A DNA stretch of 41,810 bases, taken from positions 1-41,810 of the forward strand of contig VERA01000018.1 in assembly GCA_018882935.1 (NCBI GenBank). The letters run 5' to 3'. A program made the translations under genes and the position numbers. Below are positions 9,433 through 27,911 of the stretch, one piece after another (position 1 is the first letter of the stretch; every line of letters starts with the position of its first letter). The notes below the pieces were generated by a model that was not told the origin of the DNA, made no database searches, and was given only the letters and a program-made list of their open reading frames with translations. Source of the stretch: Burkholderiaceae bacterium. GTDB taxonomy: Bacteria > Pseudomonadota > Gammaproteobacteria > Burkholderiales > Burkholderiaceae_D.

Positions 9433-10374
9433 GTGTACGCGCCAAGAACGACCCACCGCGCCAATGGCCAGCGAAAACAACGCGTCACTCTCCGTGGGGC
9501 GCTTTGTCTATGTGCAGTGCTTTTAGCTGCAACCACTCAGGCCACGCTGGCCGCTCAGAACGACCAGCAACCGACGGATTTCATCGCACTGCCCAATCGC
9601 ACCGTAAATATTGCATTGTTTGCTGCAAGGCAGACCCTCGACGGCCCCTGGCGAGATGGTGTTCAACGCGCGCAAGGTGATGGCTCCGCCAATCTGATCG
9701 CACTGCGGGCGAACTGGCATTTCTCGGTGGGCGAAGATGATCAATACACGATTGCGCCGTTGATCGCGATTTCTGCTGCAGATACGCATACCAACGCGGG
9801 GCTGGTGCCACCACGGGGGGGCGATGCATCGGGGTACGGCGACCTGCGTCTTGGTATGGCATTCTGGTTTCACCGTGATCACGTCAACCGTGAATACCGA
9901 ATGGCCACCTTGATTGTCTCGGTACCCACTGGAACCTACAATCCAAAGCAAGCGGTGAATATTGGTGAAAACCGGACAAAGACTGTGCTCTCTTTGGGCT
10001 GGATGCAACCGATTGGCTCGAGTTTGGTCCTTGATCTGGTACCCGAGGTCGCATTTTTTGGTGATAACAAAGAATTTTTAGGCACCAATCGCCTAAGCCA
10101 AGACACTGCCTATGCAATGAGTGCAACGCTACGTTATAAAGCCACGCCATTGATTCATTGGTACACCACGGCTCAAGTAAATCGCGGCGGTGCCACACAG
10201 CGCAATGACATATTATTTTCGCGGGCGCCCGACAATACACGTCTGGCGCTGGGGGCACTGCTTGTCGCCAGTGAAAAAAGTCAGGTTCAACTGCGTTACG
10301 CGAGAGATGTCGATATAAAAAATGGGTCGCGCAATACAGGCGAATTAATGCTGCGATGGTCAACTATTTTTTGA
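9433..10374 (+). CDS. Outer-membrane beta-barrel, phenol MetA-degradation family
   Basis: The 313-residue protein initiates at GTG 9433, with AAGGA five bases before it. A signal sequence covers about residues 22-40 (ALCLCAVLLAATTQATLAA). The mature part alternates polar and hydrophobic residues in strand-like stretches such as LIALRANWHF, YGDLRLGMAFWF and ATLIVSVPTGTYNP, and ends LRWSTIF with the C-terminal aromatic residue recognised by the Bam machinery. This matches the putative MetA-pathway phenol-degradation family (Pfam Phenol_MetA_deg), thought to be outer-membrane proteins or channels for hydrophobic substrates. Proximity to the meta-cleavage operon is suggestive, but it is 2.4 kb away with unrelated genes between, so a shared role is inference. 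Confidence 0.78.
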   Translation: MYAPRTTHRANGQRKQRVTLRGALCLCAVLLAATTQATLAAQNDQQPTDFIALPNRTVNIALFAARQTLDGPWRDGVQRAQGDGSANLIALRANWHFSVGEDDQYTIAPLIAISAADTHTNAGLVPPRGGDASGYGDLRLGMAFWFHRDHVNREYRMATLIVSVPTGTYNPKQAVNIGENRTKTVLSLGWMQPIGSSLVLDLVPEVAFFGDNKEFLGTNRLSQDTAYAMSATLRYKATPLIHWYTTAQVNRGGATQRNDILFSRAPDNTRLALGALLVASEKSQVQLRYARDVDIKNGSRNTGELMLRWSTIF

Positions 10375-10395: not shown

Positions 10396-13236
10396 TCAAA
10401 ACTGAATAAATAACCAGTAGCCATTCGCCGTCAGAAGCAGGCTGAGCACACCGATCGCTGTCGATGCGTGCAGCATCCGCATCGACCTGAAAAGCACGCC
10501 CCAGAATGCCATGCCGAGTCCCAGCAGTACGATGGACTTGGCATAGATGAACCACTGCTGACGCTCTGCTGCGACCGCACTCGCACCCTGATGGCTCTGC
10601 GCGACTGCCATTAATTCTTGCTTGCGACCCTGAAGAAAGTTATCTGCCTTGACGCGGTCAGACAGCTCTTTATCATCCGCACCCGATGAAGCCGTAGTTG
10701 TCGTCGTCGATGTACCGGTTGCAGCCAAGGCCACGGTGGCCGCAGAGCCGCTCGCACCACCTGCCTGAACAACCCCTCCCGCTAATTTATCCATCGAGAG
10801 AATCACCGATTCCGGTGCGATACGATAAACCGTCTGCTGCACACTCGCCATTTGGTGCACGATGCGCGCATCGGTCGCGATGTTTTCATTCACAATAAAG
10901 CCATGCTGCATCGCAGTTTCACCAACCATTGTCGCGCCGTACGTCAGAAATAGTGCTGGCAGCAGCACTGCGCTTGTGTACCTTAATCGCTTATTTGTAC
11001 TAGCCTCGGCAGCGCTGCCGGGCGGCTTTCCTTGCTGCTCGCTCATGATGGGTCCTCCTTCGTCGGATGCCAAGAGTGTTCGTCTACCATCGTCCCAGGT
11101 AGCGCGAGTGGGCGGCGTCGGGTCATAGGCAATGCCATGAGCGGGCAGGGTCGCCGCCTTCATCACTGGCATCACCGGCAGCAGCGGTAGTAATGGCAAC
11201 CGACTAGCCGCCACAATCGAACGCGCCGACTGTATCGCTTCGACATAACCAAAAATTTTATAAGTACGATTACGCGTAGCATCCATACGCTCTCGCAGCG
11301 GATGCGCAGCAGCCGATGCTTCGACGTCGCTACTCGCTATCGGGTCAAACGAATTACGGTTATCCGACAGCCGCTTGTTGGATGAAAGCCCTTCTGCATC
11401 CTGTAGCTCGCGACGCTCACCGCCTCCCTCACCGTTCCATAGGCGGCGAGCAAGCTCGGGGGACATGCCCGGCGGGCGCGGGATCATCCCATCACCCGAG
11501 GCTGCTAGACCATGACGCCCTGTTGCTGGCGCGTCGCCAGACTTACCCCGTTGCTTATCGTCGACGTCTACTGCGTGGTCGCGCAGACTGCGAGGATCAG
11601 CAGGACCCTCGGCCAGATCGGACGGGTTTTTGTTGAGATCGCCCTCTGAATCGCGAAGCGACCGCATATCGGACAGCCCCTCGAGGGCTGTCGCATTTTG
11701 TATGGCCTTGGCATCCGCATCGCTATCGCGCAGCGACCGAATCTCGCCAGGTCCTTCACTAGTAGCGGCATCTTTCTGGGTGTGAGTATCCGTATCGCTG
11801 TCACGAATTGCTCTTGCCGCCGTCGGCCCTTCATTGGTTGCGGTTTGTTTTCCGACACTGTTGTCGGCATCGGTATCGCGCAGCGCGCGTACGTCTGATT
11901 CTCCTTGCAGCGCCTCTGTGGTTTTGTTGGTCGCACCGCTGGTATTGTTATCGCGCAGCGCGCGTGTGTCTGAATGCCCTTGCGATTCTGCTGAATTTTT
12001 ATTAGCTGTACTTTCAGTATTGTTATCGCGTAGCGCACGTATATCAGATGTACCGTTAGCAGCGGCCGCCTTGTCCTTTTTTGATTTCTTGCTGGTAGCG
12101 TTTTGCTCTATCGTCTTTAGAGAACCGTCGTTATCTAGCTCGTCCGATAAACGATTAACGTTTTGCCGCATCGTGTCAGTTAATCGGCTCTCCATCTCGG
12201 AGGGACGACCAGAGTCTCGGCTGTTATCCAGATCACCACTCTTCGAGCCAGCACTTTTACCGACCTCGCCCGTCTCTTCTTGCCATTCTTGCTTACGCTG
12301 AAATACAAGTCCGTCGGCCTGATTCTTATCGAACGCAGCGGGTATGTCATTACTTTTACCAACTTTCGATAAGTGCCTGGATAACTGCGGCACATCATTT
12401 TTAAGAAAAATTATGTTGAGATATTTATCGAACTCTTTTTCATTTACTGAAAATGCGTTCAGCATTCGGCGGAACAAATCGCGCTCAACCTTGGCAACTA
12501 CCCGGTCAGCCATCATTGCGTCACACGCATTCAATAAAATACACAGGCGCTGAGCCGGATTAAGTATCGAGGCCGCCGTTGCGAGGAATTGCGGTGCACG
12601 CACTTTGCCTACGTAGCGCAGGCCCGCTTTCAGTAGAGCGGGTGAGCAGCCTATCGACGCATTCAAACGACCGACCTCCTCCTCGGCCATTGATCCGTCC
12701 GATGCCATCATGTAGATCAGCGAGGCCACGAGCGCCAGAGGCGGAGTCAGCGTATCGGTATTGGTAGCGGCATCAAAATCACCGAATACCGAGGTTTTAT
12801 TTTTGAGATCGAGCGTGTCAAAATAAGGCTGGAAGCTTGCTTTGCTATGGCCCATTGCGGCGAGCATTCGGTCAAAAAGCGACTGCTCAGCCTGAACCAC
12901 TACACCATCCGACATCAGTGAGTCGCAGACATTAATAAGCAAGCAGAGCCTATCTTTTTTGTCGAGTAACGCTGCTGCCTCTCGCAAGAACTGCTCGACG
13001 CTATGATTCTCTTTGTACTTGACTGCCTGCTTTAAGGTCTCGGCATCACTACCAACGATCGATTGGAGCTGACTACTTTCAAACTCGGAAATATCATTAT
13101 CGACCGCGATCATGTAGATCACGGCGACGACTACGCATAGCCGAGGCGTCAAGGTCTGTGACTGCGAGCTCGTCCTCAGCTTTTCATCCTCTGCTGAGGA
13201 TGGCAATAAGTCGGGGAAACGATCGACGGATCCCAT
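10396..13236 (-). CDS. TerB-tandem, 25-residue-repeat, C-terminal membrane protein
   Basis: This 946-residue protein has an unusual architecture. Residues about 28-130 and 165-275 are two helical domains with the TerB-like pattern of an Asp/acid turn followed by Glu (AVDNDISEFE, MSDGVVVQAE, ASDGSMAEEE, MADRVVAKVE). A low-complexity hydrophilic region follows. Seven copies of a 25-residue repeat with core R-A/S-L/I-R-D lie at about residues 400-555. A Pro/Gly-rich linker follows, then a membrane helix near residue 752 (SAVLLPALFLTYGATMV) and two more in the last 53 residues. There is no signal peptide, so the TerB part is probably cytoplasmic. TerB domains are linked to tellurite resistance, metal sensing and membrane-associated stress systems. 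It is divergent from the histidine kinase gene. Function is unknown. Confidence 0.85.
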   Translation of the reverse strand: MGSVDRFPDLLPSSAEDEKLRTSSQSQTLTPRLCVVVAVIYMIAVDNDISEFESSQLQSIVGSDAETLKQAVKYKENHSVEQFLREAAALLDKKDRLCLLINVCDSLMSDGVVVQAEQSLFDRMLAAMGHSKASFQPYFDTLDLKNKTSVFGDFDAATNTDTLTPPLALVASLIYMMASDGSMAEEEVGRLNASIGCSPALLKAGLRYVGKVRAPQFLATAASILNPAQRLCILLNACDAMMADRVVAKVERDLFRRMLNAFSVNEKEFDKYLNIIFLKNDVPQLSRHLSKVGKSNDIPAAFDKNQADGLVFQRKQEWQEETGEVGKSAGSKSGDLDNSRDSGRPSEMESRLTDTMRQNVNRLSDELDNDGSLKTIEQNATSKKSKKDKAAAANGTSDIRALRDNNTESTANKNSAESQGHSDTRALRDNNTSGATNKTTEALQGESDVRALRDTDADNSVGKQTATNEGPTAARAIRDSDTDTHTQKDAATSEGPGEIRSLRDSDADAKAIQNATALEGLSDMRSLRDSEGDLNKNPSDLAEGPADPRSLRDHAVDVDDKQRGKSGDAPATGRHGLAASGDGMIPRPPGMSPELARRLWNGEGGGERRELQDAEGLSSNKRLSDNRNSFDPIASSDVEASAAAHPLRERMDATRNRTYKIFGYVEAIQSARSIVAASRLPLLPLLPVMPVMKAATLPAHGIAYDPTPPTRATWDDGRRTLLASDEGGPIMSEQQGKPPGSAAEASTNKRLRYTSAVLLPALFLTYGATMVGETAMQHGFIVNENIATDARIVHQMASVQQTVYRIAPESVILSMDKLAGGVVQAGGASGSAATVALAATGTSTTTTTASSGADDKELSDRVKADNFLQGRKQELMAVAQSHQGASAVAAERQQWFIYAKSIVLLGLGMAFWGVLFRSMRMLHASTAIGVLSLLLTANGYWLFIQF
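11578..12039 (-). repeat. 75-bp in-frame tandem repeats encoding R-A/S-L-R-D units (7 copies)
   Basis: The codons for RALRD, RALRD, RALRD, RAIRD, RSLRD, RSLRD and RSLRD recur at exact 75-base steps, with one 72-base step at the last interval. The first Arg codon is at 12037-12039 and the seventh at 11590-11592. Between cores the unit keeps a D/N-rich segment, a Lys or Gln, and an E/Q-G turn (ESQG, EALQG, NEG, SEG, LEG, AEG). Cores are conserved while linkers drift, so the array is old enough to diverge but kept in register. Confidence 0.9.
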
Positions 13237-13632
13237 CGCTCAGTCCCTCGGGTTCACGTGGCCACGGCGCGCCGAATTAGCGGCCTTGGTTCGGGCGATT
13301 GGCAAATCGTGGCGGTCAGCTTCACGGGGGGCAGCTGATGTCAGCACGCGCCGGGTCCGCCGAGGCGGCAGGCCAGGAAGATGATTGGTCGCTGAGGCGC
13401 GCTGATTGTGCATGGCGCAAATGCCTGAACACGAAAAAAGTGATTGCTGATACTACGTTTCGTCAGCAATCCAACCCGCACTCCTCCTCATACTTTCTCT
13501 CAAAGCCTCTCGATTAGATATAAAAAACATGAGGAGTTACCCTCAAAATCCGATTTTTTTAGATTCTCGGTACCGCTCTGCTTTACCCTTGCGTATCGCG
13601 GTTATGATGCTTAGGCAACATTAGCCTAATCA
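13237..13632. other. Divergent intergenic region with 9-bp inverted repeat
   Basis: These 396 bases separate the TerB-repeat gene and the histidine kinase gene and hold no convincing gene. A 72-residue frame at 13299-13517 has no recognisable features. A perfect inverted repeat GATTGCTGA (13442-13450) and TCAGCAATC (13463-13471) with a 12-base loop is the clearest structure, and a smaller one, TTAGGC/GCCTAA, lies at 13611-13629 next to the kinase start. Either could be an operator for the adjacent response regulator, which is inference. Confidence 0.5.
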
Positions 13633-15678
13633 ATGCTCACAAAAGCTCATAGTTATGGCCAACGCCTTGCCACCCTTGAATCAATACTGATGATGAAAAT
13701 CCAGGACCGATGGAGCCGTCTTTGCTGCAGCCTTGATCATCTGGCAGCGAAAAGCCGCCTGGCCTGCCTCTGCTTATTGCTACTTAGTACGAGCTGCTGG
13801 GGCATGGTCGCAGACCCGCTCAATGAGCGGTCCTACTTCGTAGATAAAAACGCGGCATTCGATATCCATTCGATTGAGCAGGCAGAATTCAAGCCATTCG
13901 CAAAGCGCCTGAATATCGGGTATGAGTTAGCGCCCATATGGATCCGTTTACGTGTCACACCTGGGACACAATCAGCGTCAGCCGCCGATAATCTACCTTC
14001 AGGACATTTAGTACTGCGAACCGGACCGCACGACGTCAATCAAATTGATGTGTATGAATTTAACAATGGGGAATGGCGTCGCCGAACTGCCGGCGATTTA
14101 TATAGCGACAGCGAGACGTGGTGTGCCGATGATTACTACTGCTTCAGATTGCATGATCACTCAACACAGCCCAAAACACTTTATCTCAGAATTCAGACTT
14201 ACAATTTTTTGATGTTCGACTCTGACGTTATCGCGCTCGAAAACATCCCGGTAGTCAGTAGCAACCGCATGAAGCGGATCGCAGCATCGCTGACGATGGC
14301 AGCATTTTTATTGGCGATCGGCTTTTATTTATTAAGCAAACACCGATCAAAACTCACTGTTGTCTATGTGATTTTTCAGATCTCGGTGCTGAGCTACCTG
14401 CTGAATATTTATGGTTTTCCGGAGCGGTGGTTTCCTCATCTTTCGGCAAGCATCATCGATGCCATGCCGCACTTGCTATTCATTTTACGTACGCTACTGA
14501 TGGCGGTGGCAGTCTACGTCGTTATCCGCCCCTATTGCGATGCACCGCTTTACCCGAAATTGATGACTGTTGTGGTCGTTGGATGTATCGTCAATTTCAT
14601 CGCTTTTTTCGCAGGATTCAAGGTATTTGCAATCCAGTTCAACTTAATTGTCTTCGCGGTGCAGCCAACTGTTCATCTATATGGCTTGCTTACCTCGAAA
14701 GGAATGGTTAAAAATGTCAGGATCTTGCTGTACACCGGCTATCTTATCTACTGTGTTCTGCTTGCGGGATCAATCATCCCTGCAATGCTGGTGAATGAAA
14801 TAGGAACCTTTGACGGCTCGGTTCAAAACATCACTGACTGGCGTCTTAACGGTGCCATTCTTGGTGTATTTGTGATTCTACTCATCAAATTTGAGGAAGA
14901 TTATCGTGAGAAGGTCAGTAATGAAAAATTGAACCAACTTCAAATGGATGCGCTGGAGGCCAAATCTTCGGCCGCCTTGCTGGCAGATAGAAATACCTTG
15001 ATTGACCTGTTAACCCATGACCTGAAGAACCCGCTCGGCACGATTACCTTTGCCTCCAGAGCGCTACGCGAGCAGTTACGTAACGACCCTTCTGCGACGA
15101 AACGATTAACCAATATCGATTTGAGCGTGACTCGCATGAACAACCTGATCGAGCACGTCGCTGTGTCGACCCGGGTTGATCGCTACTCGCCACCCAGTAA
15201 TCAGCTGTTATCACCGGCACTCGAGCTAATCGACGAATTGATTGAGAACTATGATGCGCCTGAGCGATTTGATGTAAAAGTCGATGTAAAGACGATTTTC
15301 AAAGCTGATCGCGACATGCTGAGCGTGGTCTTTGGCAACCTGATCGATAACGCTTACAAGTATGGACACGCGGCTGGCAAGATAAGCATTGAGGTGACGA
15401 GCGCGCAGCCGCGTGATAGTAGCCAGCGTTCGGAACGTACTGCAGAGACCCAACCCGAGATCGTACAGGTCAAGATCAGCAATACGATTGGGACGTTCGG
15501 TGCGCCCGACCGCGAACGCGTATTCGAGCGCTACTACCGTCCCTCCAGCACGATGAATATACCTGGCATGGGGCTAGGCCTGAGCCTGGTGAAAGCTGCG
15601 GCCGCGAAGATCGGAGCGACAGTACATTATTCTCGCGATGAGGAAACCGTGACATTCTCTGTTGAGGTGCCAAATTGA
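13633..15678 (+). CDS. 7TMR-DISM sensor histidine kinase
   Basis: The protein has up to 681 residues. Domain order is a signal sequence (about residues 45-58, LACLCLLLLSTSCW), an extracytoplasmic 7TMR-DISMED2-like beta domain (about 60-210, with IWIRLRV and LYLRIQTYN), seven membrane helices (about 215-420), a short coiled coil, a HisKA domain with the phospho-acceptor His462 in THDLKNPLG, and a HATPase with NLIDNAYKYG and GLGLSLVKAA. The DISM sensor family binds carbohydrates or other small ligands, but the ligand here is unknown. The start is uncertain: 13633 and 13690 are both ATGs without clear ribosome sites. It overlaps the response-regulator gene. Confidence 0.9.
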   Translation: MLTKAHSYGQRLATLESILMMKIQDRWSRLCCSLDHLAAKSRLACLCLLLLSTSCWGMVADPLNERSYFVDKNAAFDIHSIEQAEFKPFAKRLNIGYELAPIWIRLRVTPGTQSASAADNLPSGHLVLRTGPHDVNQIDVYEFNNGEWRRRTAGDLYSDSETWCADDYYCFRLHDHSTQPKTLYLRIQTYNFLMFDSDVIALENIPVVSSNRMKRIAASLTMAAFLLAIGFYLLSKHRSKLTVVYVIFQISVLSYLLNIYGFPERWFPHLSASIIDAMPHLLFILRTLLMAVAVYVVIRPYCDAPLYPKLMTVVVVGCIVNFIAFFAGFKVFAIQFNLIVFAVQPTVHLYGLLTSKGMVKNVRILLYTGYLIYCVLLAGSIIPAMLVNEIGTFDGSVQNITDWRLNGAILGVFVILLIKFEEDYREKVSNEKLNQLQMDALEAKSSAALLADRNTLIDLLTHDLKNPLGTITFASRALREQLRNDPSATKRLTNIDLSVTRMNNLIEHVAVSTRVDRYSPPSNQLLSPALELIDELIENYDAPERFDVKVDVKTIFKADRDMLSVVFGNLIDNAYKYGHAAGKISIEVTSAQPRDSSQRSERTAETQPEIVQVKISNTIGTFGAPDRERVFERYYRPSSTMNIPGMGLGLSLVKAAAAKIGATVHYSRDEETVTFSVEVPN

Positions 15679-16418
15679 GACATCAAATATTATCGAGCGT
15701 ACCTAGTCCTCTGGCGCAGATGTCGATCGCACTCGTTGAAGACGACGAGTTATTGCGTGCTGAGGTGAGTGACCATCTTCGTAATCATGGCTTTCTAGTA
15801 CATGATGTAAATTCAGCGCGTGCTCTGGATGACCTGATCACACAACAAGCAGTTGATATATTCGTTGTCGATCTTAATTTGCCGGGCGAAGATGGACTGA
15901 GTTTATCCAACCGATTACGTCATACCCTTCCTGAGGCCGGTATTGTGATCATGACAGCCAAGGTGACATTGAATGATCGGATCGCCGGATACGATGTTGG
16001 CGGCGCAGACGTTTACCTTACCAAGCCAGTGGCACCCGACGAGCTGGTGATGATTCTTCGCAGTCTGGGTAGACGCGTAAAGCCGGTGCGAAATGATCAA
16101 GCCCTATCGCTCAGTCTCAGGCAGAGAACACTGCAAGGCCCCAGCTTGTCTTCGGTATTGCGACTGACTATGCGGGAAAAAATGCTTCTGGTCGCGCTAG
16201 CTCAAGCACAAGACAACACATTAGATTCGGCCGTCTTGTGCGATGTGTGCAGCGGACACACCGAGGAAGAGACCATCAGCAAGCACGCGCTGGAGGAAAT
16301 CGTTGCGCGTTTGAGAAAGAAAATCCGTAACGCGCAATCCGAATCAGCAGAACCTGCGCTGAAGTCCGTGTGGGGAGTTGGTTACCAGCTCTGCGTACAG
16401 ATCAACCTTGTACCCTGA
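15675..16418 (+). CDS. OmpR-family response regulator
   Basis: The receiver domain has the acidic pocket VEDDE (residues 21-25), phospho-acceptor Asp66 in VVDLNLPGEDG and Lys117 in LTKP. The C-terminal part (about 150-245) looks like a winged helix ending VWGVGYQLC, as in OmpR/PhoB DNA-binding domains. The TTG at 15675 is chosen because GAGGTG lies five bases upstream and TTGA overlaps the kinase stop, which suggests translational coupling. An ATG at 15720 (MSIALVEDDE) is the alternative and lacks a ribosome site. It is the cognate partner of the upstream kinase. The nearest candidate target is the divergent TerB-repeat gene. Confidence 0.9.
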   Translation: MRHQILSSVPSPLAQMSIALVEDDELLRAEVSDHLRNHGFLVHDVNSARALDDLITQQAVDIFVVDLNLPGEDGLSLSNRLRHTLPEAGIVIMTAKVTLNDRIAGYDVGGADVYLTKPVAPDELVMILRSLGRRVKPVRNDQALSLSLRQRTLQGPSLSSVLRLTMREKMLLVALAQAQDNTLDSAVLCDVCSGHTEEETISKHALEEIVARLRKKIRNAQSESAEPALKSVWGVGYQLCVQINLVP

Positions 16419-16420
16419 GC

Positions 16421-16723
16421 GGAGGTGTCGCAGACAAACCGTGAAGTATGGCTAGCCTCCAACTACGCCAGCGACATTTGTAAAATGTTGCTGACTAGAC
16501 AGAGGTATCGCCGATAGTAAATGAAGTATGGCTAGCCTCCAACTACGCCAGCGACATTTGTAAAATGTTGCTGGCTAGACAGAGGTATCGCCGATAGTAA
16601 ATGAAGTATGGCTAGCCTCCAACTACGCCAGCGACATTTGTAAAATGTTGCTGGCTAGACGGAGGTGTCGCAGACAGTACTCGACGTACGGCAAGACACC
16701 TCCAACAACGCCAGCAACATTTT
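16421..16723. repeat. 80-bp tandem repeat array with internal hairpins (3 copies plus a diverged fourth)
   Basis: A unit of exactly 80 bases recurs: the word GAAGTATGGCTAGCCTCC starts at 16443, 16523 and 16603. The flanking 16-base word GGAGGTGTCGCAGACA at 16421 recurs at 16661, where a diverged fourth unit runs to the motA stop. Each unit carries a near-perfect 13-bp stem, GCCAGCGACATTT/AAATGTTGCTGGC with a GTA loop and one G-U pair (for example 16547-16559 with 16563-16575; copy 1 has one mismatch). The fourth unit adds GGAGGTGTC (16661) pairing with GACACCTCC (16695). It fills the convergent gap between the response regulator and motA, so bidirectional termination or mRNA 3'-end protection is plausible. 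Confidence 0.92.
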
Positions 16724-17587
16724 TTACTTGCCGCGGAGCCCGTCGAAGACCTCGGCGAACCCAGGCTGATTCTGGTGCGAGATAACGCTCCGCGCCGCCT
16801 CAATCACCAGCGGCACTGGATGACCACGCAAGGTCTGAACAATCATTTCATTGATGACTTTATAGATTTGACCGTCTTCGTCAATGATCTGCCCCAGACG
16901 CGCGGCGAGTGGGTCAAATACACCGTAAGCCACGAACACCCCGAGGAAGGTACCCACCAGCGCGGAACCAATCAGCGCACCCAGAACCGGCGGTGGCTGG
17001 TCAATCGCACCCATGGTTTTCACCACACCCAACACGCAGGCCACGATACCGAGCGCGGGGAGCGCACCGGCCACGTTGGAAAGCATGCCCTGGAATTTCA
17101 ATTCATCGTGATGGTGGGTTTTGATGTAGTTCTTCATCACATCATCCACGGCGTCAGCATCAAGGTTACCCTGCGCAATCACGACCAGTCGTAGCGTATC
17201 GCAAATCATGTGAACGATGGAATGGTCTCCGGCGAGCTTGGGGTATTCACCAAAAATAGCGGATGAATCCGGATTTTCTACGTGCGCTTCAAGGGCAACG
17301 GCGCCCTCTTTTTTCATCACGTTCAGCAGTTTGCCGACCATCAGAATCAGATCGAGATAATCCTGCGGCTTCCATTTTGGTCCCGCAATGCAGCGAGCGA
17401 TACCACCAAAACCGCCTTTGAAGATCAGCATACTGTTGGCGATCAGCTGCGCTCCGATGCCCGAGCCCACAATAATGAAGCCCTCGATCGGCGCTGCCTT
17501 GATGATCGGTGCCATTTTCCCGCCAGCCATGATGTAGCCGCCGAAAACGCAGCCAAACACGACGCCTAGTCCCACGAAAAAAAACAT
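16724..17587 (-). CDS. motA: Flagellar stator protein MotA (orphan)
   Basis: MotA forms the proton channel of the flagellar stator with MotB. The 287-residue product starts at the ATG at 17587, with AAGGAG six bases upstream. An in-frame ATG 18 bases further up lacks this site. Visible hallmarks are the N-terminal helices FFFVGLGVVFGCVFGGYIMAGG and GFIIVGSGIGAQLIAN, the cytoplasmic ALEAHVENP with the conserved Glu, and the TM3-TM4 prolines in ALPALGIVAC and FDPLAARLG. The usual downstream motB is absent: the gene ends in the repeat array facing the response regulator. MotB must be elsewhere or missing. Assignment to MotA is firm. Confidence 0.93.
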   Translation of the reverse strand: MFFFVGLGVVFGCVFGGYIMAGGKMAPIIKAAPIEGFIIVGSGIGAQLIANSMLIFKGGFGGIARCIAGPKWKPQDYLDLILMVGKLLNVMKKEGAVALEAHVENPDSSAIFGEYPKLAGDHSIVHMICDTLRLVVIAQGNLDADAVDDVMKNYIKTHHHDELKFQGMLSNVAGALPALGIVACVLGVVKTMGAIDQPPPVLGALIGSALVGTFLGVFVAYGVFDPLAARLGQIIDEDGQIYKVINEMIVQTLRGHPVPLVIEAARSVISHQNQPGFAEVFDGLRGK

Positions 17588-17786
17588 CTGCCTCTCCTTG
17601 TGCAAGCGGATTCGGGACCTGATGACCCAGGCCGCACGCTATCGTCTCTTTATTCGGCACGAGATCGGAGAATTCAAGCTCGCACCAAACGATATCATGG
17701 CAATTGTGAAACAAACTACCGAATAACGCTACCCTTGCGATTCAAAGGGAATATTCGACTGAACCGAATTATCTATTTGAAAACAT

Positions 17787-20146: not shown

Positions 20147-20644
20147 TTACAGAAAACGATCGAGCAGCTTCCGTGATCCGCGGTCGAGCGCGCGGATGTC
20201 ATGCACCCGGTAGGTCACGCCATGGCTGTCGGTAATAATTAACCCACCATCGCGCAGCCGGCGAATATCTTCTTCACCCTTCAGCACAAAGCTGTTCAGG
20301 CCACGATCAGTTTTTACTGTCCAGGTACTGGGCGTTGCAAACGTACTGACATCCACCAGACGCTCAATCACAGGTAAAAACTCGCGCTGCGCGATCTCTT
20401 GCTCGATCATGGCGCGGGTGTCGGCATCCAGCACGCGCAGTTGATCTATAAAGACCAGCTCATGGCCATCAACGCTCAGCAACGACACTTGCTCACCCGG
20501 CGCATCGATTGGGAAGGCCTGTGCCGGCACGACACCGACATGCACCTCGCCAGTCTCGTCGGTGAAGTTGAGCCGACCGTAGCTATCACGACGCAGCCGG
20601 TGCGCTACCGGCATCCATGCCTTGCCGCTGGATTCATCGATCAT
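20147..20644 (-). CDS. Cyanophycin-associated DUF1854 protein
   Basis: The 165-residue soluble protein has the DUF1854 pattern, with HRLRRDSYGRLNFTDE near the N-terminus, REFLPVIERLVDV centrally and WTVKTDRGLNSFVLKGEEDIRRL toward the C-terminus. Its ATG overlaps the TGA of the ABC transporter gene as ATGA (20641-20644), so the two are translationally coupled. This pair recurs beside cyanophycin synthetases in betaproteobacteria and is annotated as cyanophycin metabolism-associated, but the role of neither is known. The transporter is likely its functional partner. Confidence 0.88.
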   Translation of the reverse strand: MIDESSGKAWMPVAHRLRRDSYGRLNFTDETGEVHVGVVPAQAFPIDAPGEQVSLLSVDGHELVFIDQLRVLDADTRAMIEQEIAQREFLPVIERLVDVSTFATPSTWTVKTDRGLNSFVLKGEEDIRRLRDGGLIITDSHGVTYRVHDIRALDRGSRKLLDRFL

Positions 20645-22935
20645 GCGTTCCCCGCCTTTGCCAGAGGAATTCGCAGCGGATCCGGCGCTTCATCTTCAGT
20701 ATCTACGTTGCGTGCCTGCGCCTCGTACAGGCGCCAATAAGCCCCTTGCTGAGCGATCAGCTCATCATGCGAGCCGATCTCGACCACTTCGCCACGCTCG
20801 AGTACTACCAAGCGATCAGCTCGGCGAAGCGTAGACAAGCGGTGTGCAATCGCAATCGTGGTTCTACCTTTGACCAGGTTATCGAGCGCTTTTTGAATTT
20901 CTTTTTCAGTGGCGGTATCGACAGATGAGGTGGCCTCATCCAGCATCAAAATATGCGGGTTAATCAGCAAGGCGCGGGCAATCGAAATGCGCTGACGCTC
21001 GCCGCCGGAAAGACCCTGCCCTCGCTCACCGACGATGGAGTCATAGCCATGACGCAGTCGCAAAATGAATTCATGCGCGTGCGCGGCTCGTGCTGCAGCA
21101 ATTACCTCGGCGCGCGTTGCGTCCGGCTTGCCATACGCGATATTTTCAGCAATCGTGCCATGAAACAGGAAAGGCTCTTGCAGTACCAGGCCAATATGGC
21201 GACGATAATCTGCGACCGAGAAGCGGCGCAAATCAATACCATCGACCGTAATCGCGCCATCGGTCACATCGTAGAAACGGCAGATCAGGTTCACCAGCGT
21301 GCTCTTACCTGAACCACTGTGACCCACTAGACCGATCATTTCTCCCTGCCGGATTTCGAGATTAATGCCCTTCAAAATTCGACGGCTACCATAGCGGAAA
21401 CCGACATCACGAAGCGCGATGATGCCGGGTGCCTTGGCGACGGGTACCGGGTTCGCGGGCTCGGGCACGCTGGAGCTGTGATCCAGAATATCGAAAATAC
21501 GCTTGGCACCCGCGGCTGCTTTTTGTGTGTGCGACACAATGCGGCTCATGGTGTCGAGTCGGCCATAGAACCGACCGATGTAGGCAATAAACGCGACCAG
21601 CACACCCACGGTCACCCCGTGATTAATCACCAACCAGATACCGAAGCCCCACACAATCAGCAAGCCGACCTCGGTCAGCATGGTGACGGTAGGCGCGAAC
21701 AAACTCCAGGTACGGTTTAATTTGTCATTCACCGCGAGGTTGTGCATGTTCGCTTCACGGAAGCGCTGCGACTCACGGCCTTCTTGTGCAAAGGCTTTGA
21801 CGACACGAATGCCGGGAATGGTATCGGCGAGTACATTGGTCACATCACCCCAGATACGATCAATTTTTTCAAACCCGGTACGCAAGCGGTCACGTACCGA
21901 ATGAATCAACCACATAATCAGAGGTAGCGGCAACAGCGTGACTAAGGTCAGCCAGGGATTGATGGTAAACAGCACCACAGAGGTCATCGCCAGCAGCAGC
22001 ACATCAGTTGCAAAATCAAGCGCATGCAGAGACAGGAAAATACAAATACGGTCGGATTCATTACCGATACGCGCAATCAAATCCCCCGTACGTTTGGCGC
22101 CGAAATAATCCAGCGATAACGTCATCAGATGGTTGAAAGTGGCCGTACGCAAATGCGCACCGATACGCTCTGAGACGAGTGCAAGCAGATAGGTTCGCCA
22201 CCACCCAAGCCCCCATGCCAATAGCGCCGCCACCAATAAGCCTGACAGGTACAACACCACGTCTTGAGTATCAATTTGCGCGCCGGTTTGCTGGGGAATG
22301 AGAATCTCATCCATCAGCGGCATCGACAGATAGGGCGGCACCATCAATGCTGCCGTTGACGCCAACGTCAGGAAGAAACCCAGCAACAGTTGCATCTTGT
22401 AGGGTTTGGCAAAACGCCAAAGGCGCAGCAACACCCAGGTCGATACCGGCTCGAGCAGCTCGCGGTGACACACCGGGCATTCTTCACTTTGATCAGGCAG
22501 CAGCGCATGACAACTCGGGCAGCGCGCGCCGGCATCCTCCGGCGCCAAGGATTGCCCACCACGCGCGGCTTGTACTTTTTCAAAATGCTGAATGAAACGC
22601 AGCGCACTCACCTCTTGCGCCAGCGTGAACCGCCAATGCGCCAAGGCGCCGAGTTGATCATGCAGCGCAAGGGTGGCAACGCCGCCATGATCGGAATGAT
22701 GCAACGTCAATGCGGGTTGCAACGGCCACTCAGACCACCCGTCACCATCTGAATGGCTTATCATTCGCTCGGTTGTCAGCAGCAGGCGGCTGTTCGCAAA
22801 CTGCAGTGCGGGGTTCAGGTCCGGCTCGAGCGTGGCAATCACATGCTCGTGCGCGCGCAGAGGCGGCGGCTCTCGATGATCTTGCGGCGCAGGGTTTACA
22901 TTCCGTGCTGCGGGAGAAGAGGCACTAGGCGGCAT
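20641..22935 (-). CDS. Cyanophycin-associated ABC exporter-like protein with zinc ribbon
   Basis: The 764-residue half-transporter has an unusual N-terminal cytoplasmic domain (about 1-175) with a CPSC..CPVC zinc-ribbon-like motif near residues 142-165. It is followed by six membrane helices (about 180-460) and an ABC domain with Walker A GHSGSGKST (near 535), signature LSGGERQRIS, Walker B ILMLDEATSS and the switch His in AIAHRLST. It is the type I exporter fold and should act as a homodimer. It is divergent from cphA' and coupled to the DUF1854 gene, so a link to cyanophycin or its dipeptide products is plausible. Substrate and direction are unknown. Confidence 0.92.
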   Translation of the reverse strand: MPPSASSPAARNVNPAPQDHREPPPLRAHEHVIATLEPDLNPALQFANSRLLLTTERMISHSDGDGWSEWPLQPALTLHHSDHGGVATLALHDQLGALAHWRFTLAQEVSALRFIQHFEKVQAARGGQSLAPEDAGARCPSCHALLPDQSEECPVCHRELLEPVSTWVLLRLWRFAKPYKMQLLLGFFLTLASTAALMVPPYLSMPLMDEILIPQQTGAQIDTQDVVLYLSGLLVAALLAWGLGWWRTYLLALVSERIGAHLRTATFNHLMTLSLDYFGAKRTGDLIARIGNESDRICIFLSLHALDFATDVLLLAMTSVVLFTINPWLTLVTLLPLPLIMWLIHSVRDRLRTGFEKIDRIWGDVTNVLADTIPGIRVVKAFAQEGRESQRFREANMHNLAVNDKLNRTWSLFAPTVTMLTEVGLLIVWGFGIWLVINHGVTVGVLVAFIAYIGRFYGRLDTMSRIVSHTQKAAAGAKRIFDILDHSSSVPEPANPVPVAKAPGIIALRDVGFRYGSRRILKGINLEIRQGEMIGLVGHSGSGKSTLVNLICRFYDVTDGAITVDGIDLRRFSVADYRRHIGLVLQEPFLFHGTIAENIAYGKPDATRAEVIAAARAAHAHEFILRLRHGYDSIVGERGQGLSGGERQRISIARALLINPHILMLDEATSSVDTATEKEIQKALDNLVKGRTTIAIAHRLSTLRRADRLVVLERGEVVEIGSHDELIAQQGAYWRLYEAQARNVDTEDEAPDPLRIPLAKAGNA

Positions 22936-23081
22936 GAATCCGTCGTGGTTGTCGCGAGCTGATTATGAGATGAGTTGAACCGAAGCGATTTACCAATGTC
23001 GCACTCTGCGCATTGTCGCCGAAGTCGGCGGCCGAGTCCTAACAATCCGACATCTTACCTTTTTACCCAAACCCTGACCCG

Positions 23082-25292
23082 ATGAGCACATCCAACCCCG
23101 CTGTGATGCCACCTGGACCATTCGAAATTCAGGTCCCGCGCATCACCTTCCTGCGTGGTCCGAACATGTGGACCTACACCCCGGTGCTCGAAGCCTGGCT
23201 CGTTCTTGGCGTGCTGGAGGAGTGGCCGAGCAACCGGCAGCCTGGCTTTATTGACCGTTTATTGTCAGTTTTGCCACAGGTCGCTGCGCATCACTGTAGC
23301 CCCGGGGTTCCCTATGGTTTTGAGGAGCGGCTGCGTGACGGCACATGGATGGGTCATGTGCTTGAGCATGTGATCATTGAGCTGCTCGAGCTTTCCGGTC
23401 TTGAGGCGGGTTTTGGTCAGACCCGGGAAACCACCCGCTCTGGCACCTACCGTATGGTGTTTCGCGTACCAGACGAGACGGTCGGCCGTACTGCGTTCGA
23501 ATCCGGCCTCAAGCTACTGCATGCGGTAATCAACCAACAGCCATTCGAGATCGAGCCCGAGCTGGCGAAAATTCGCAAAGCGATCGACGAGTTTTACCTC
23601 GGCCCCTCAACAGCACACATCGTGGCCAGCGCCAAGAAACGCAAGATTCCGCATATTCGTCTCAACCAAGGCAACCTGGTGCAACTCGGCTACGGCGCAT
23701 TGCAAAACCGTATCTGGACTGCTGAGACCGACCTCACCAGTGCCATCGCTGAAGGCATCGCCGGCAATAAAGACCTCACCAAGTCGCTGCTGCGCAGCTG
23801 CGGCGTACCGGTGCCAAATGGCGAGGTAGTGCACAGCGTAGAAGCTGCATGGGAAGTGGCCGAGGACATTGGCTTGCCGGTGGTCGTTAAGCCGCGCGAC
23901 GGAAACCGAGGGCGTGGTGTAATGCTGAATCTGCGTACGCGCGAGGAGGTGGAATCAGCGTATGCGATTGCGCGTGCTGAAGACCCTGACGTGATTGTTG
24001 AGCGCTATATCGAAGGCGACGAGCATCGCGTGCTGGTGGTCGGCGGCAAAGTCATCGCAGTCTCGCGCGGTGAGAGTGCATGGGTTACCGGTGACGGCCA
24101 CTCAACTGTGGCAGAACTCATCGAGCAACAAATTAACAGCGACCCTCGCCGCGGTAATGCTGATATTCACCCGCTGGAAAAGCTGAACCCGATCACTAAT
24201 AGCGTCATTCAAGGTAACCTGAGACGGCAGCGCCTCACCACAGAGTCGGTACCAAGCAATGCGCAGCGCGTGCTGATTGCTGCCAACGGCAACCATGCGA
24301 TTGAATGTACTGACCTTATTCATCCTGATAATGCCTTCACCTGCGTGCTTGCGGCGCAGGTCATTGGGCTCGATATTGCCGGTATCGATATCGTTTGCAA
24401 AGATATCGCGCAGCCGCTCGAATCACAACGCGGTGCGGTGGTTGAAGTGAACGCGGGTCCCGGCTTGTTGATGCATCTGAAGCCGGCTCAAGGTGACGTG
24501 CGGCCCGTGGGTGATGCGATTGTCAGTCATCTGTTCCCTGAAGGTCAACGCGGTCGTATTCCGATTGTGGGTGTTGCAGGCAGCGAAGGCACCACGCCGA
24601 TCGCGCGGTTGGTTGCCTGGCTGATGCAACTTTCCGGCGCGCGCGTAGGGGTTGCGTGCAGCGAGGGATTGTTTGTTGGGGCGCGGCAGCTTGAGCGTGG
24701 TGATTGCGCGCACTGGGAGCCCGGCCAACGCTTGCTGATTAACCGAAATGTCGAGGCAGCAGTTTTTGAGAATAGTCCGATGTCGCTATTGACCGAGGGC
24801 CTGGCGTACGACCGCTGCTGGGTCGGTATTGTCACTGACAGCAAACCCGTTCCCGGGCTCGATGACGAGCTGATGACCGAAGCTGAGCATCGCTACAAAA
24901 TACTCCGCACGCAAATCGATGTCGTGCTGGAGACCGGCGCTGCCGTGCTGAACGCCGATGATGACACTGTGCTGGAGATGGCCAAGTTATCCGATGGCGA
25001 TGTGCTGCTGTACGCGCGTGATGGCAAGCATCCCGCGCTGGTAGCGCATCGTGAATCCGGGCGGCGTGTTCTGTTTCTGGAAGATGGATTTCTGGTGCGC
25101 GCTCATGGCAATGCCGTGGCCGATAAAATTAATCTCAGCCGCGACCTTAGCCCCGCCGCTGCCGCTTTGTCCCACGAAGTACTGATGGCTTCAATCGGTG
25201 CCGCATGGGCGCTCGGGCTCGAAGCACAACTGATTCGAACCGGTCTCGATACTTTCGGTACGGTTCAGCCCCAAACGCTGGTGATTGCATAA
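23082..25292 (+). CDS. cphA': Cyanophycin synthetase-like protein CphA'
   Basis: The 736-residue protein shares the N-domain and ATP-grasp domain of cyanophycin synthetase (LGPSTAHIV near 185, DLTKSLLRSCGVPVP near 235, VVKPRDGNRGRG near 268, VEVNAGPGL near 450). Its Mur-ligase-like domain is degenerate. The P-loop equivalent reads VAGSEGTTPI, with the lysine of GKTTT replaced by Thr, and the protein ends where the Mur C-lobe begins (LDTFGTVQPQTLVIA). The ATP-grasp half, which carries the Arg/Asp ligation chemistry in this family, appears intact. This matches the shorter CphA2/CphA' type that occurs alongside full CphA. It is three bases from cphA. Confidence 0.88.
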   Translation: MSTSNPAVMPPGPFEIQVPRITFLRGPNMWTYTPVLEAWLVLGVLEEWPSNRQPGFIDRLLSVLPQVAAHHCSPGVPYGFEERLRDGTWMGHVLEHVIIELLELSGLEAGFGQTRETTRSGTYRMVFRVPDETVGRTAFESGLKLLHAVINQQPFEIEPELAKIRKAIDEFYLGPSTAHIVASAKKRKIPHIRLNQGNLVQLGYGALQNRIWTAETDLTSAIAEGIAGNKDLTKSLLRSCGVPVPNGEVVHSVEAAWEVAEDIGLPVVVKPRDGNRGRGVMLNLRTREEVESAYAIARAEDPDVIVERYIEGDEHRVLVVGGKVIAVSRGESAWVTGDGHSTVAELIEQQINSDPRRGNADIHPLEKLNPITNSVIQGNLRRQRLTTESVPSNAQRVLIAANGNHAIECTDLIHPDNAFTCVLAAQVIGLDIAGIDIVCKDIAQPLESQRGAVVEVNAGPGLLMHLKPAQGDVRPVGDAIVSHLFPEGQRGRIPIVGVAGSEGTTPIARLVAWLMQLSGARVGVACSEGLFVGARQLERGDCAHWEPGQRLLINRNVEAAVFENSPMSLLTEGLAYDRCWVGIVTDSKPVPGLDDELMTEAEHRYKILRTQIDVVLETGAAVLNADDDTVLEMAKLSDGDVLLYARDGKHPALVAHRESGRRVLFLEDGFLVRAHGNAVADKINLSRDLSPAAAALSHEVLMASIGAAWALGLEAQLIRTGLDTFGTVQPQTLVIA

Positions 25293-25295
25293 CGC

Positions 25296-27911
25296 ATGGA
25301 AATCAAACAAACACGCGCCCTACGCGGGCCTAACCTGTGGAGCCGCTACACCGCGCTCGAGATTGAGGTCGCTTGTTCTGACGAAGAATGCGAAATTGAT
25401 CAACTCAACGGCTTTGTCGACAAGCTACGTGCGATTTGCCCGGGCGTCGCTGATTTACGCGCACCCGGCTACCATGGCCCGCTAACGATGGCGCATGTAC
25501 TTGAGGCGACCCTACTCGCGCTGCAAGCGAATGCGGGTTGCCCGCTGTCTTTTTCACTGACCAATGCCACTCCCGTGCCGCAGCTGTATCAAGTCGTTGT
25601 TGAGTACAGCGAAGAAGACGTCGGTCGGCTGGCGCTGACTTATGCCATGCAGGTATCGCAGTACGTGTTCGATCTGTGTCGCGGGCAACTTGCTGACGAC
25701 GCGCCTGCGCCTGATGTAACAGCCATGGTGGCCGAGTTGCGCGAGATGGATGAAGATAACCGGCTCGGGCCCTCCACAGGATCGATTGTTAATGCGGCAG
25801 TTGCGCGCGGCGTTCCATTTAGACGCTTAACGAGTGGGAGTTTGGTGCAGCTGGGCTGGGGTTGCAAGCAGCGCCGCATTCAAGCTGCTGAAGTCGATTC
25901 AACCAGTGCGGTCGCAGAGACCATCGCTCAAGATAAAAACTTGACCAAGCATCTACTGCATGCAGCGGGTGTTCCGGTACCGCATGGCGCGCCAGTGAAG
26001 ACAGCCGAACAGGCCTGGGAAGTCGCGCTGCGTATCGGCCTGCCGGTAGTGTGCAAACCGCAAAATGGTAGCCAAGGCAAAGGCGTCACAGTCAACATCA
26101 CGCTGCGAGAGCAAATGGATAAAGCATTTGACGCAGCGACAATTGCGGCGCGTGGTAAGGGCCCGGTGCTGGTAGAAAAATTTTTCCCAGGCAGTGACTA
26201 TCGCTTACTGGTTGTGGGAAACAAGTTAGTGGCCGCAGCCCGTCGCGACCCACCGCAGGTAATTGGTGACGGCAAGCACAGTGTGCGCGAGTTGGTGAAC
26301 ATCTTGAATGCCGATCCACGTCGCAGCGAGGGGCACGCCACTTCACTCACCAAGATCAGCTTTGATGATATTGCAGTCGCCTGTCTCGCTGAACAACAAA
26401 TGTCACCGGAATCCATTCCTGAAGTTGGTCGGCGTGTCGTCTTACGTAATAACGCCAACCTCTCAACCGGTGGTAGCGCTACGGATGTCACCGATGATGT
26501 CCACCCCGAAGTTGCAGCCCGTGCGATTGATGCAGCTGCCATGGTAGGTTTGCATGTCTGTGGTGTGGATGTGGTGGTGGAGAACATCATGCGCCCGCTT
26601 GAGGAGCAAAACGGTGGCGTGGTTGAGGTGAACGCAGCGCCGGGATTACGCATGCACCTGACCCCCTCGTACGGTAAAGGCCGCAATATTGGTGAGGCGG
26701 TGATACAGCAAATGTTTCGACAGGGTGATGATGCGCGCATTCCTGTCGTCGCAGTCACGGGCGTTAACGGTAAAACCACGACCACCCGTTTGATTGCGCA
26801 TGTACTGGCCAACAAAGGTTTGTGCGTCGGCATGACTAACACCGATGGAGTTTACGTCGGTGGCCGCCAGACAGATAGCGGTGATTGCAGCGGACCGAAG
26901 AGCGCACGCAATGTGCTCGCGCATCCGCACGTTGAGGCCGCGGTGCTGGAAACTGCGCGTGGCGGTATGCTGCGCGAGGGCCTCGGCTTTGATAAATGTT
27001 CAGTAGCGGTAGTGACGAATGTGGGCGAAGGAGATCATCTCGGCCTGAATCATATGCACACCGCCGAAGATGTCTCGCGCATTAAACAAATCGCCGTACA
27101 AAATGTTTCGCCGAGCGGCTATGCGGTCTTGAATGCCGCGGATCCCTTGGTCGCCTCAATGGCGCCGCATTGTCCGGGCAAGGTGATTTTTTTCGCGCAG
27201 AGCCCGACCCATCCGGTGATGGTCACGCATCGTGCGCGTGGTCATCGCGTGGTGTACGTCGAGAATGCAGATATTGTGCTGGCCGAAGGTGCGCAGCATC
27301 ATCGTATGAAGCTTTCAGATGTGCCGCTCACGATGGGTGGCACGCTAGGATTTCAAGTAGAGAATACCTTGGCTGCAGTGGGCGCTTGCTGGGCGCTTGA
27401 TTTGCCGTGGTTAGATATTGTTGCCGGGCTAAAAAGCTTCAACAACGATATCAAAGGTGCTCCGGCTCGCTTTAATCGAATGTCTTATCGCGGTGCGACC
27501 GTAGTCGCAGACTATGGTCATAACCCGCACGCTATGCGCGCATTAGTCGCCGCCTTTGACGCCATGCCGGCAGCGGAAGGTATGCGACGCACCGTGGTCA
27601 TCAGTGGCGCCGGTGATCGGCGTGATGAAGATCTACGTCAGCTGACCCGGGTATTAGGGGCGGCGTTCGATAATGTCATTCTTTACGAAGATGCCTGCCA
27701 ACGGGGCCGTGCTGATGGTGAGGTGATTGGTCTGCTACGTGAGGGCCTGGAAGGGGCGCAGCGCGCATCGTTTATCGAAGAAATTCGCGGCGAGTTTATT
27801 GCTATTGACCGCGGGCTATCGCTACTGAAACCGGGTGATCAATGTCTGGTGCTGGTAGATCAAGTGCAAGAGGCACTTCAACACCTGGCGCAGCGGGTGG
27901 AAGCAGGGTGA
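25296..27911 (+). CDS. cphA: Cyanophycin synthetase (CphA)
   Basis: CphA polymerises Asp and Arg into multi-L-arginyl-poly-L-aspartate, a nitrogen and carbon reserve, in two ATP-dependent steps. The 871-residue product has an N domain (1-160), an ATP-grasp domain (about 220-475, with DKNLTKHLLHAAGVPVP, VCKPQNGSQGKGVT and VEVNAAPGLRMHL) and a Mur-ligase-like domain with an intact P-loop GVNGKTTTTRL near 490. It also keeps the distal DYGHNPHAM and SGAGDRRDEDL motifs of the C-lobe. Length and motifs are those of active bacterial CphA. It starts three bases after cphA', so the two are co-translated. No cyanophycinase or isoaspartyl dipeptidase gene is in the window. Confidence 0.95.
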   Translation: MEIKQTRALRGPNLWSRYTALEIEVACSDEECEIDQLNGFVDKLRAICPGVADLRAPGYHGPLTMAHVLEATLLALQANAGCPLSFSLTNATPVPQLYQVVVEYSEEDVGRLALTYAMQVSQYVFDLCRGQLADDAPAPDVTAMVAELREMDEDNRLGPSTGSIVNAAVARGVPFRRLTSGSLVQLGWGCKQRRIQAAEVDSTSAVAETIAQDKNLTKHLLHAAGVPVPHGAPVKTAEQAWEVALRIGLPVVCKPQNGSQGKGVTVNITLREQMDKAFDAATIAARGKGPVLVEKFFPGSDYRLLVVGNKLVAAARRDPPQVIGDGKHSVRELVNILNADPRRSEGHATSLTKISFDDIAVACLAEQQMSPESIPEVGRRVVLRNNANLSTGGSATDVTDDVHPEVAARAIDAAAMVGLHVCGVDVVVENIMRPLEEQNGGVVEVNAAPGLRMHLTPSYGKGRNIGEAVIQQMFRQGDDARIPVVAVTGVNGKTTTTRLIAHVLANKGLCVGMTNTDGVYVGGRQTDSGDCSGPKSARNVLAHPHVEAAVLETARGGMLREGLGFDKCSVAVVTNVGEGDHLGLNHMHTAEDVSRIKQIAVQNVSPSGYAVLNAADPLVASMAPHCPGKVIFFAQSPTHPVMVTHRARGHRVVYVENADIVLAEGAQHHRMKLSDVPLTMGGTLGFQVENTLAAVGACWALDLPWLDIVAGLKSFNNDIKGAPARFNRMSYRGATVVADYGHNPHAMRALVAAFDAMPAAEGMRRTVVISGAGDRRDEDLRQLTRVLGAAFDNVILYEDACQRGRADGEVIGLLREGLEGAQRASFIEEIRGEFIAIDRGLSLLKPGDQCLVLVDQVQEALQHLAQRVEAG

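Follow-up and report, generated by a model that had tools for sequence, protein, structure and literature searches.

A bacterial genus that is represented by freshwater bacteria carries a large protein in which two N-terminal TerB domains, a repeat array and a C-terminal DUF4337-type membrane region are combined, and the gene adjoins two-component genes wherever the relevant flank can be read. Membrane-anchored TerB proteins are known as a kind; this variant appears to be new, and its repeat module undescribed. The protein can be looked at, tentatively and with confidence a little short of even, as an inner-membrane stress adaptor of the TerB type that has a repeat tether and is controlled by the adjacent two-component system. 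The features concerned are listed in Table 1; the window is the whole stretch of 41,810 nucleotides that was analysed, and it comes from a genome of 2.74 Mb.

Table 1. Positions of the TerB protein, its parts and its neighbours in the window
Feature	Position	Strand	Evidence
TerB-TerB-repeat-DUF4337-type membrane protein, 946 aa	10396..13236	-	open reading frame, Pfam TerB, relatives
TerB domain 1, residues 27-150 (approximate)	12787..13158	-	second Pfam stretch
TerB domain 2, residues 163-281 (approximate)	12394..12750	-	single score, model, fold match
Seven-copy repeat array, residues about 393-566	11539..12060	-	core positions, periodicity, profile score
DUF4337-type C-terminal region, residues about 740-946	10399..11019	-	Pfam in relatives, hydropathy
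Candidate regulator-binding box GAGAGGCTTTGAGAGAAAGTATGA	13488..13511	-	upstream alignments; post hoc pattern
Sensor histidine kinase: 7TMR-DISMED2, HisKA, HATPase_c	13633..15678	+	Pfam
OmpR-type response regulator, Response_reg + Trans_reg_C	15675..16418	+	Pfam
Outer-membrane-barrel-type protein PF13557, convergent neighbour	9433..10374	+	Pfam, neighbours

Domains of the protein

The reading frame is confirmed exactly, with 946 aa, an ATG start and the minus strand. Pfam places two PF05099 stretches on the protein (E 3.7e-10, 40.6 bits, cut-off 24.4), and the two N-terminal TerB-like domains that had been proposed in an earlier note on this DNA are thus present. Scored singly in the genome search, domain 2 is above the same cut-off with 28.8 bits and domain 1 is slightly below it with 22.0. 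The AlphaFold model of domain 2 has a mean pLDDT of 68; its top PDB match is the COG3793 tellurite-resistance protein 2ou3, with a Foldseek probability of 0.98 but an E-value of only 0.21, and the next is the TerB-type 2h5n, with a weak E of 0.47. At the sequence level, domain 2 gave eight PDB matches with unrelated names (best E 0.58), and profile A1, built for the protein family, gave none.

Nothing besides TerB is found in the window protein by Pfam up to E 1, and no family by NCBIfam up to E 0.1. A plasmid collection yielded five records, all TerB-family proteins and none covering 80% of the query. In these three sources no relative with a known function was found beyond the family name TerB; homologues of known function, which the earlier note had named as refuting, thus did not turn up. 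In the part of the open-licence literature that was covered, neither the architecture nor its repeat was found in print. No paper there brought TerB together with a histidine kinase, a tandem repeat and a transmembrane part, a TerB-like domain with a voltage-gated membrane protein, or a TerB domain with tellurite, membrane and a two-component system; the papers there on DUF4337 were unrelated by title and abstract; and none of the matches listed for four peptide strings was related by title.

The C-terminal region has hydrophobic stretches at residues 754-772, 897-915 and 926-944, with mean hydropathies of 1.43, 1.73 and 1.57. Only the middle one exceeds 1.6 (one strong, two weaker), and therefore the count of three helices also leans on relatives with DUF4337. 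One such relative, L096, has a C-terminal DUF4337 match at E 1.9e-12 (48.0 bits, cut-off 27); that of L034 is weak and below the cut-off (E 1.2e-4, 22.7 bits), and L036 matches only at E 0.078. Because the window protein itself has no match to PF14235 up to E 1, the label DUF4337-type rests on these relatives. Profile A1 also reaches a stand-alone DUF4337 protein, L152, at E 4.8e-46. The three membrane helices suggested earlier are thus borne out as three hydrophobic stretches, but the region is not merely an anchor, since the relatives place it in DUF4337. By the positive-inside rule, the charged segments NKRLRY, before the first helix, and RSMR, between the second and third, would put both the TerB pair and the repeats on the cytoplasmic side.

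Distribution

The carriers form a group of freshwater bacteria, with three Oxalobacteraceae MAG relatives, for two of which a pond is named. The long TerB protein is found in 12 of the 21 genomes of the Oxalobacteraceae genus (G000, G156, G178, G197, G198, G199, G122, G196, G189, G204, G135 and G200). The copy of G200 stops at a contig end, and the reading frame is interrupted in the assemblies of G178 and G196. Seven of the nine genomes that do not have the long protein (G195, G167, G047, G004, G145, G201, G202, G203 and G205) contain single TerB domains, repeat matches or short C-terminal matches; none of these three kinds was found in G004 and G202. Nine relatives align end to end except for the linker.

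A single-sequence search of 195 family genomes gave matches in nine, all in this genus and the window's own included. With profile A1, 14 of 399 genomes of the order have matches. Both ends of the protein are found only in G000 and G524, and the other 12 have a TerB-type or a DUF4337-type match alone. G524 belongs to another family, and it was rejected as an independent relative: its contig L151 is 96-97% identical at the DNA level to contig C54 of G135 (L036) over most of both. The 65% GC of L036 fits G135, whose flagellar stretch L091 has 67%, and therefore the G524 contig has probably been mis-binned or transferred.

Repeat array

The cores RALRD (three times), RAIRD and RSLRD (three times) start at residues 400, 425, 450, 475, 500, 525 and 549. 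The array had been described as a 75-bp in-frame tandem repeat of seven copies in register; all seven cores are there, but with spacings of 25, 25, 25, 25, 25 and 24 residues the register is imperfect at the last step. The 25-residue periodicity score is 357, compared with a mean of 121, an SD of 14 and a maximum of 189 in 2000 shuffles. Between copies the cores are 83% identical as protein and 71% as DNA, and whole units are 35% and 48% identical, respectively, so that the cores are indeed conserved while the linkers drift, as the earlier note had it. The first Arg of the core is encoded by CGT, CGC, AGA and CGG. Tandem Repeats Finder does not report the array, which is therefore old at the DNA level while being conserved as protein.

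The repeat region contains few hydrophobic residues (VILMFYW 13%) and much A, D, S and G. A full-length AlphaFold model, whose alignment comprised just six sequences (taken from the window, L029, L030 and L031), is of low confidence throughout (mean pLDDT 34), and it was rejected as a basis for the structure of the repeats. To judge from composition, the linker is probably an extensible, disordered tether.

Array length varies among relatives: some have no detectable array, and others have up to about 17-20 motif matches. With profile A2, seven of the nine TerB proteins score above their own shuffles, and L036 (G135) and L099 (G204) do not; judged by these two aligned relatives, the array is dispensable. 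G000 and G156 have a unit of 25 residues, G122 and G189 mostly one of 12-13, and G197 one of 11-12 or 23.

The same repeat occurs elsewhere in the genus. Profile A2 was built from 15 soluble repeat proteins, A4 from five other repeat proteins and A6 from short capped proteins. The window protein scores 113.3 bits with A2, against at most 2.5 in 200 linker shuffles, and only 9.5 with A4, against 6.0 for shuffles; six relatives score 21.4-64.5 with A4. Of 392 family genomes, 18 contain A2 matches, and all 18 are among the 21 of this genus; of 399 order genomes only the window's own does. A6 matches are found in 13 of the 392, again all in this genus. By these searches the repeat is a genus-restricted module, and therefore the partner of the TerB protein's repeats is probably shared with the soluble repeat proteins.

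One soluble repeat protein lies in the fliR-flhB flagellar cluster, between a SPOR-protein-cluster gene and a coiled-coil-type gene in nine of nine contexts (gene families were assigned for L040 only). The SPOR-protein cluster follows flhB, fliR is present on seven of the nine stretches and a MotB-type gene on six, and the window's own genome has a flagellar-cluster copy at L087:2236-3057. Other soluble repeat proteins share a C-terminal coil (hhalign 92.1% between two soluble families). L089 has MerR- and ApbE-type genes as neighbours, both L088 and the related L090 have a radical-SAM gene, and a short repeat protein in L051 lies between globin and molybdopterin-oxidoreductase genes; L092 ends in a glutaredoxin-like domain (E 3.1e-4, 21.3 bits, cut-off 22.9). 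The C-cap (ERI...LE) and the N-cap (VFR) of the soluble proteins may have counterparts in the TerB linker, with hhalign values of 24.7% and 8.7% against A2 and about 0 against A4. NCBIfam adhesin (MSCRAMM) matches of L040 and L034 are far below the cut-offs and look like low complexity.

The repeats might be a mere expandable spacer with no specific partner, shared because one simple sequence spread and slipped within the genus. Two of nine relatives with an undetectable array, the variable unit length and the drift that leaves whole units 35% identical are all what a spacer would give. However, the core is kept as protein despite its varied codons, the motif recurs in proteins that have the conserved C-terminal coil, and it was not found in 371 other family genomes. 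A spacer of this kind is unlikely, though it is the most serious of the alternatives, and a tether that also contacts a partner is preferred here.

Two-component genes and a candidate operator box

The kinase and regulator that had been described as divergent from the TerB gene are both real by reading frame and Pfam. Two-component genes adjoin the TerB gene in 10 of the 10 loci readable on the relevant flank (12 loci in total, those of G200 and G204 being truncated), and so the loss of linkage that the earlier note had named as refuting did not occur. A DISMED2 kinase and an OmpR-type regulator are present in seven of the ten. These are divergent from the TerB gene in G000, G156 and G178 and on the same strand in G122, G189, G199 and G196; in both G178 and G196 the contig ends within the kinase, the remaining part of which is on another contig. 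The other three (G135, G198 and G197) have a different, short-kinase system. Only the regulator start is on the contig in G197, and it matches regulators of the short-kinase type at 60-63%, not the window's.

Outside these loci, G204 has a short-type kinase on another contig, G198 has a DISMED2-type kinase on another contig, G195 matches the short type in part, and G200 yielded neither type of kinase. A DISMED2-type kinase (37% identical) is present in G202 and a short-type one in G201, and neither genome has a long TerB protein. With a DISMED2-type kinase counted at E under 1e-100, 8 of the 21 genomes have both kinase and TerB protein, 4 the TerB protein only, 1 the kinase only and 8 neither (Fisher p 0.024, uncorrected for relatedness).

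At 6 of the 12 loci (G000, G156, G178, G197, G200 and, at 27% identity, G198) the TerB gene has a PF13557-type outer-membrane-barrel gene as neighbour. A link with the cyanophycin synthetase genes at 23082-27911, suggested by the Arg/Asp-rich repeat, was rejected: over the stretches covered, the TerB loci of G122, G189, G198 and G199 have other gene surroundings. A scan of positions 13200-13700 predicted a single promoter and a single terminator, which were left out of account.

Alignments of the upstream regions suggested a box, RAGAGNNTTYRAGAGNNNGTRTGA, with two half-sites 10 bp apart, a common layout for OmpR-type regulators. For the 24-bp copy in the window, 0.11 occurrences are expected by chance at up to three mismatches. 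Among the loci examined, and at the same tolerance, the box is found only upstream of seven DISMED2-type TerB genes, with no mismatch in six and three in G199; it should be pointed out that the pattern was written from the very loci it finds, and these counts are no independent test. In the 21 whole genomes the perfect box is found only at the same six sites. Up to two mismatches add two further sites, in G198 and G122, each with two, and a reversed control pattern has three sites at that tolerance.

The box lies 251-254 bp before the TerB start codon where kinase and TerB gene are divergent and 113-117 bp before it in G122, G189 and G199, and the orientation towards the TerB gene is identical in both arrangements. 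When loci of the two arrangements are compared in pairs, the box ranks first among the shared segments in 9 of 12. It is clear in G156-G189 and G156-G196 (21 of 26, with 16 in a shuffle), does not surpass a shuffle in two of the nine (G000-G189 and G178-G122), and is not the best segment in G000-G122, G000-G199 and G178-G199. In divergent loci the kinase start is the nearer one (121 bp from the box in the window), and there the box may serve the kinase. Because the box upstream of the TerB gene is conserved, the reading of the TerB protein as the output of the neighbouring kinase pair is supported, although not proven.

The opposite direction has also to be weighed, with the protein as an input: it would then be a membrane accessory by which the neighbouring kinase is modulated. 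There is a precedent in E. coli: membrane-anchored DjlA, when overproduced, activates the Rcs phosphorelay by way of its J domain, and its TerB-like domain lies between the membrane helix and the J domain (PMC11451591). Adjacency to two different kinase systems suits an accessory as well as a target. On the other hand, DjlA acts on Rcs via the J domain and DnaK, with RcsC ruled out as the target (PMC11451591), Pfam finds no J domain in the window protein, and a box with TerB-directed orientation better suits a target. An input role is thus rather improbable, and the output role is kept in what follows.

Proposed account

In the adaptor account, the kinase would sense an extracytoplasmic signal via its DISMED2 domain, and the phosphorylated OmpR-type regulator would bind the candidate box and induce the TerB gene. 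The helices would anchor the protein in the inner membrane, leaving the TerB pair and repeats on the cytoplasmic side. There the repeats might form an extensible, probably disordered, multivalent tether, by which the TerB pair could meet partners near the membrane. Adjacency across both arrangements and both kinds of kinase speaks for this; the kinases of G202 and G201 that have no long protein, and the DISMED2-type kinase that G198 has elsewhere, speak against it. TerB domains are widespread, and a kinase system with seemingly one strong site per genome is a simple route to both signal and function. The repeat, common to several proteins of the genus, offers a second handle, on a partner that they may have in common.

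A further and speculative step, to which only a low probability can be given, is that the repeat is a genus-restricted address tag whose carriers meet the same cytoplasmic partner or each other. The carriers would be the TerB membrane protein, the flagellar-cluster protein, the glutaredoxin-like fusion and the proteins beside globin, ApbE and radical-SAM genes. If this is true, the TerB protein links an extracytoplasmic signal to a membrane-bound motility and redox assembly.

The earlier note saw in the conserved cores the binding of a repeated ligand, and this idea is weakened because the array is undetectable in two of nine relatives and the unit shifts from 25 to about 12 residues. A solenoid fold with such a ligand would explain the strict 25- or 12-residue register and the G/P and D/R at fixed places, but hydrophobic content is low and the array is missing in some relatives, so that a solenoid is improbable when set beside a flexible tether.

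Comparison with known systems

The likeness to the TerB family (PF05099; 2ou3, 2h5n) consists of both N-terminal domains, with fold matches at weak E-values; the window protein differs by its tandem TerB domains, repeat linker, DUF4337-type membrane region and two-component neighbour. A TerC-TerB complex has been associated with the inner-membrane stress response, among other functions (PMC12054061). Membership of the classical tellurite-resistance (ter) system can be all but set aside, since beyond the TerB domain itself no other ter-type family (TerC, TerD, others) was found among the window proteins scanned with Pfam.

DUF4337 (PF14235) is shared through the C-terminal region of the relatives L096 and, below cut-off, L034, whereas stand-alone DUF4337 members have no TerB part. 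The soluble repeat proteins (L040, L087 and others) have the same repeat as the window protein by A2 score, but neither a TerB domain nor a membrane region in Pfam. Ion-channel-TerB proteins of the same genomes (L042, L046, L048 and L051) likewise have a TerB-type domain behind a membrane part; in them a channel replaces DUF4337, the TerB-type domain is single and no repeats were seen. In L042, Ion_trans is found at E 8.4e-31 and Pfam TerB at only 0.037, with 34% identity to TerB domain 1 of the window protein.

By analogy, the nearest functional precedent is DjlA, the E. coli co-chaperone. It is likewise membrane-anchored, with a cytoplasmic TerB-like domain and a tie to a sensor-kinase pathway, and the role of its TerB domain is described as not clearly defined (PMC11451591). 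A weak NCBIfam DjlA match in the relative L096 (14.7 bits against 162) is confined to the TerB part. Whereas DjlA has a single helix together with a J domain, the window protein, in which no J domain was found, has two TerB domains and the repeats.

Gene neighbourhoods

The 3′ ends of the response-regulator gene and the convergent MotA-type gene are separated by a tandem array (window positions 16422–16722) of about 3.5 copies of an 80 bp unit with 92% matches. The inverted repeat GCCAGCGACATTTGTAAAATGTTGCTGGC is found in every copy. A MotA-type gene follows the two-component pair in both the window and a genome of the same genus (G156, stretch L029).

Three loci (L034, L035 and L097) carry the TerB, kinase and regulator genes on one strand, as opposed to the divergent arrangement of the window. 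These share amidohydrolase-like, acyltransferase-like and methyltransferase-like genes (assigned by eye), which lie beside the TerB-kinase-regulator genes and are not the neighbours found in the divergent loci. No barrel gene is present on the stretches read of these three loci.

Related proteins and near-identical contigs

TerB-type domains are also found at the C-terminus of voltage-gated-channel-type proteins, one in the window's own genome (see table) and others in stretches L046, L048 and L051. In L051, the channel-TerB gene is near that of a short capped repeat-type protein.

Features in the window and in other sequence stretches
Feature	Position	Strand	Match or context
MotA-type gene	window 16724–17605		MotA_N, 5.3e-25
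ABC transporter, DUF1854 and two cyanophycin-synthetase-type genes	window 20147–27911		consecutive
Channel-type protein, C-terminal TerB-type domain	L042:1767–3092 (own genome, G000:C136)		Ion_trans, 8.4e-31
Repeat-type protein, G145	L092:4078–5223	−	C-terminal glutaredoxin-like domain, match just below Pfam cut-off
Short capped repeat-type protein region	L051:6131–9169		protein gene situated between bacterial globin and molybdopterin oxidoreductase genes

Contigs L036 (G135) and L151 (G524) show 96–97% identity across most of their lengths; their genomes are assigned to different families. Such sequence similarity points to either mis-binning or recent transfer.
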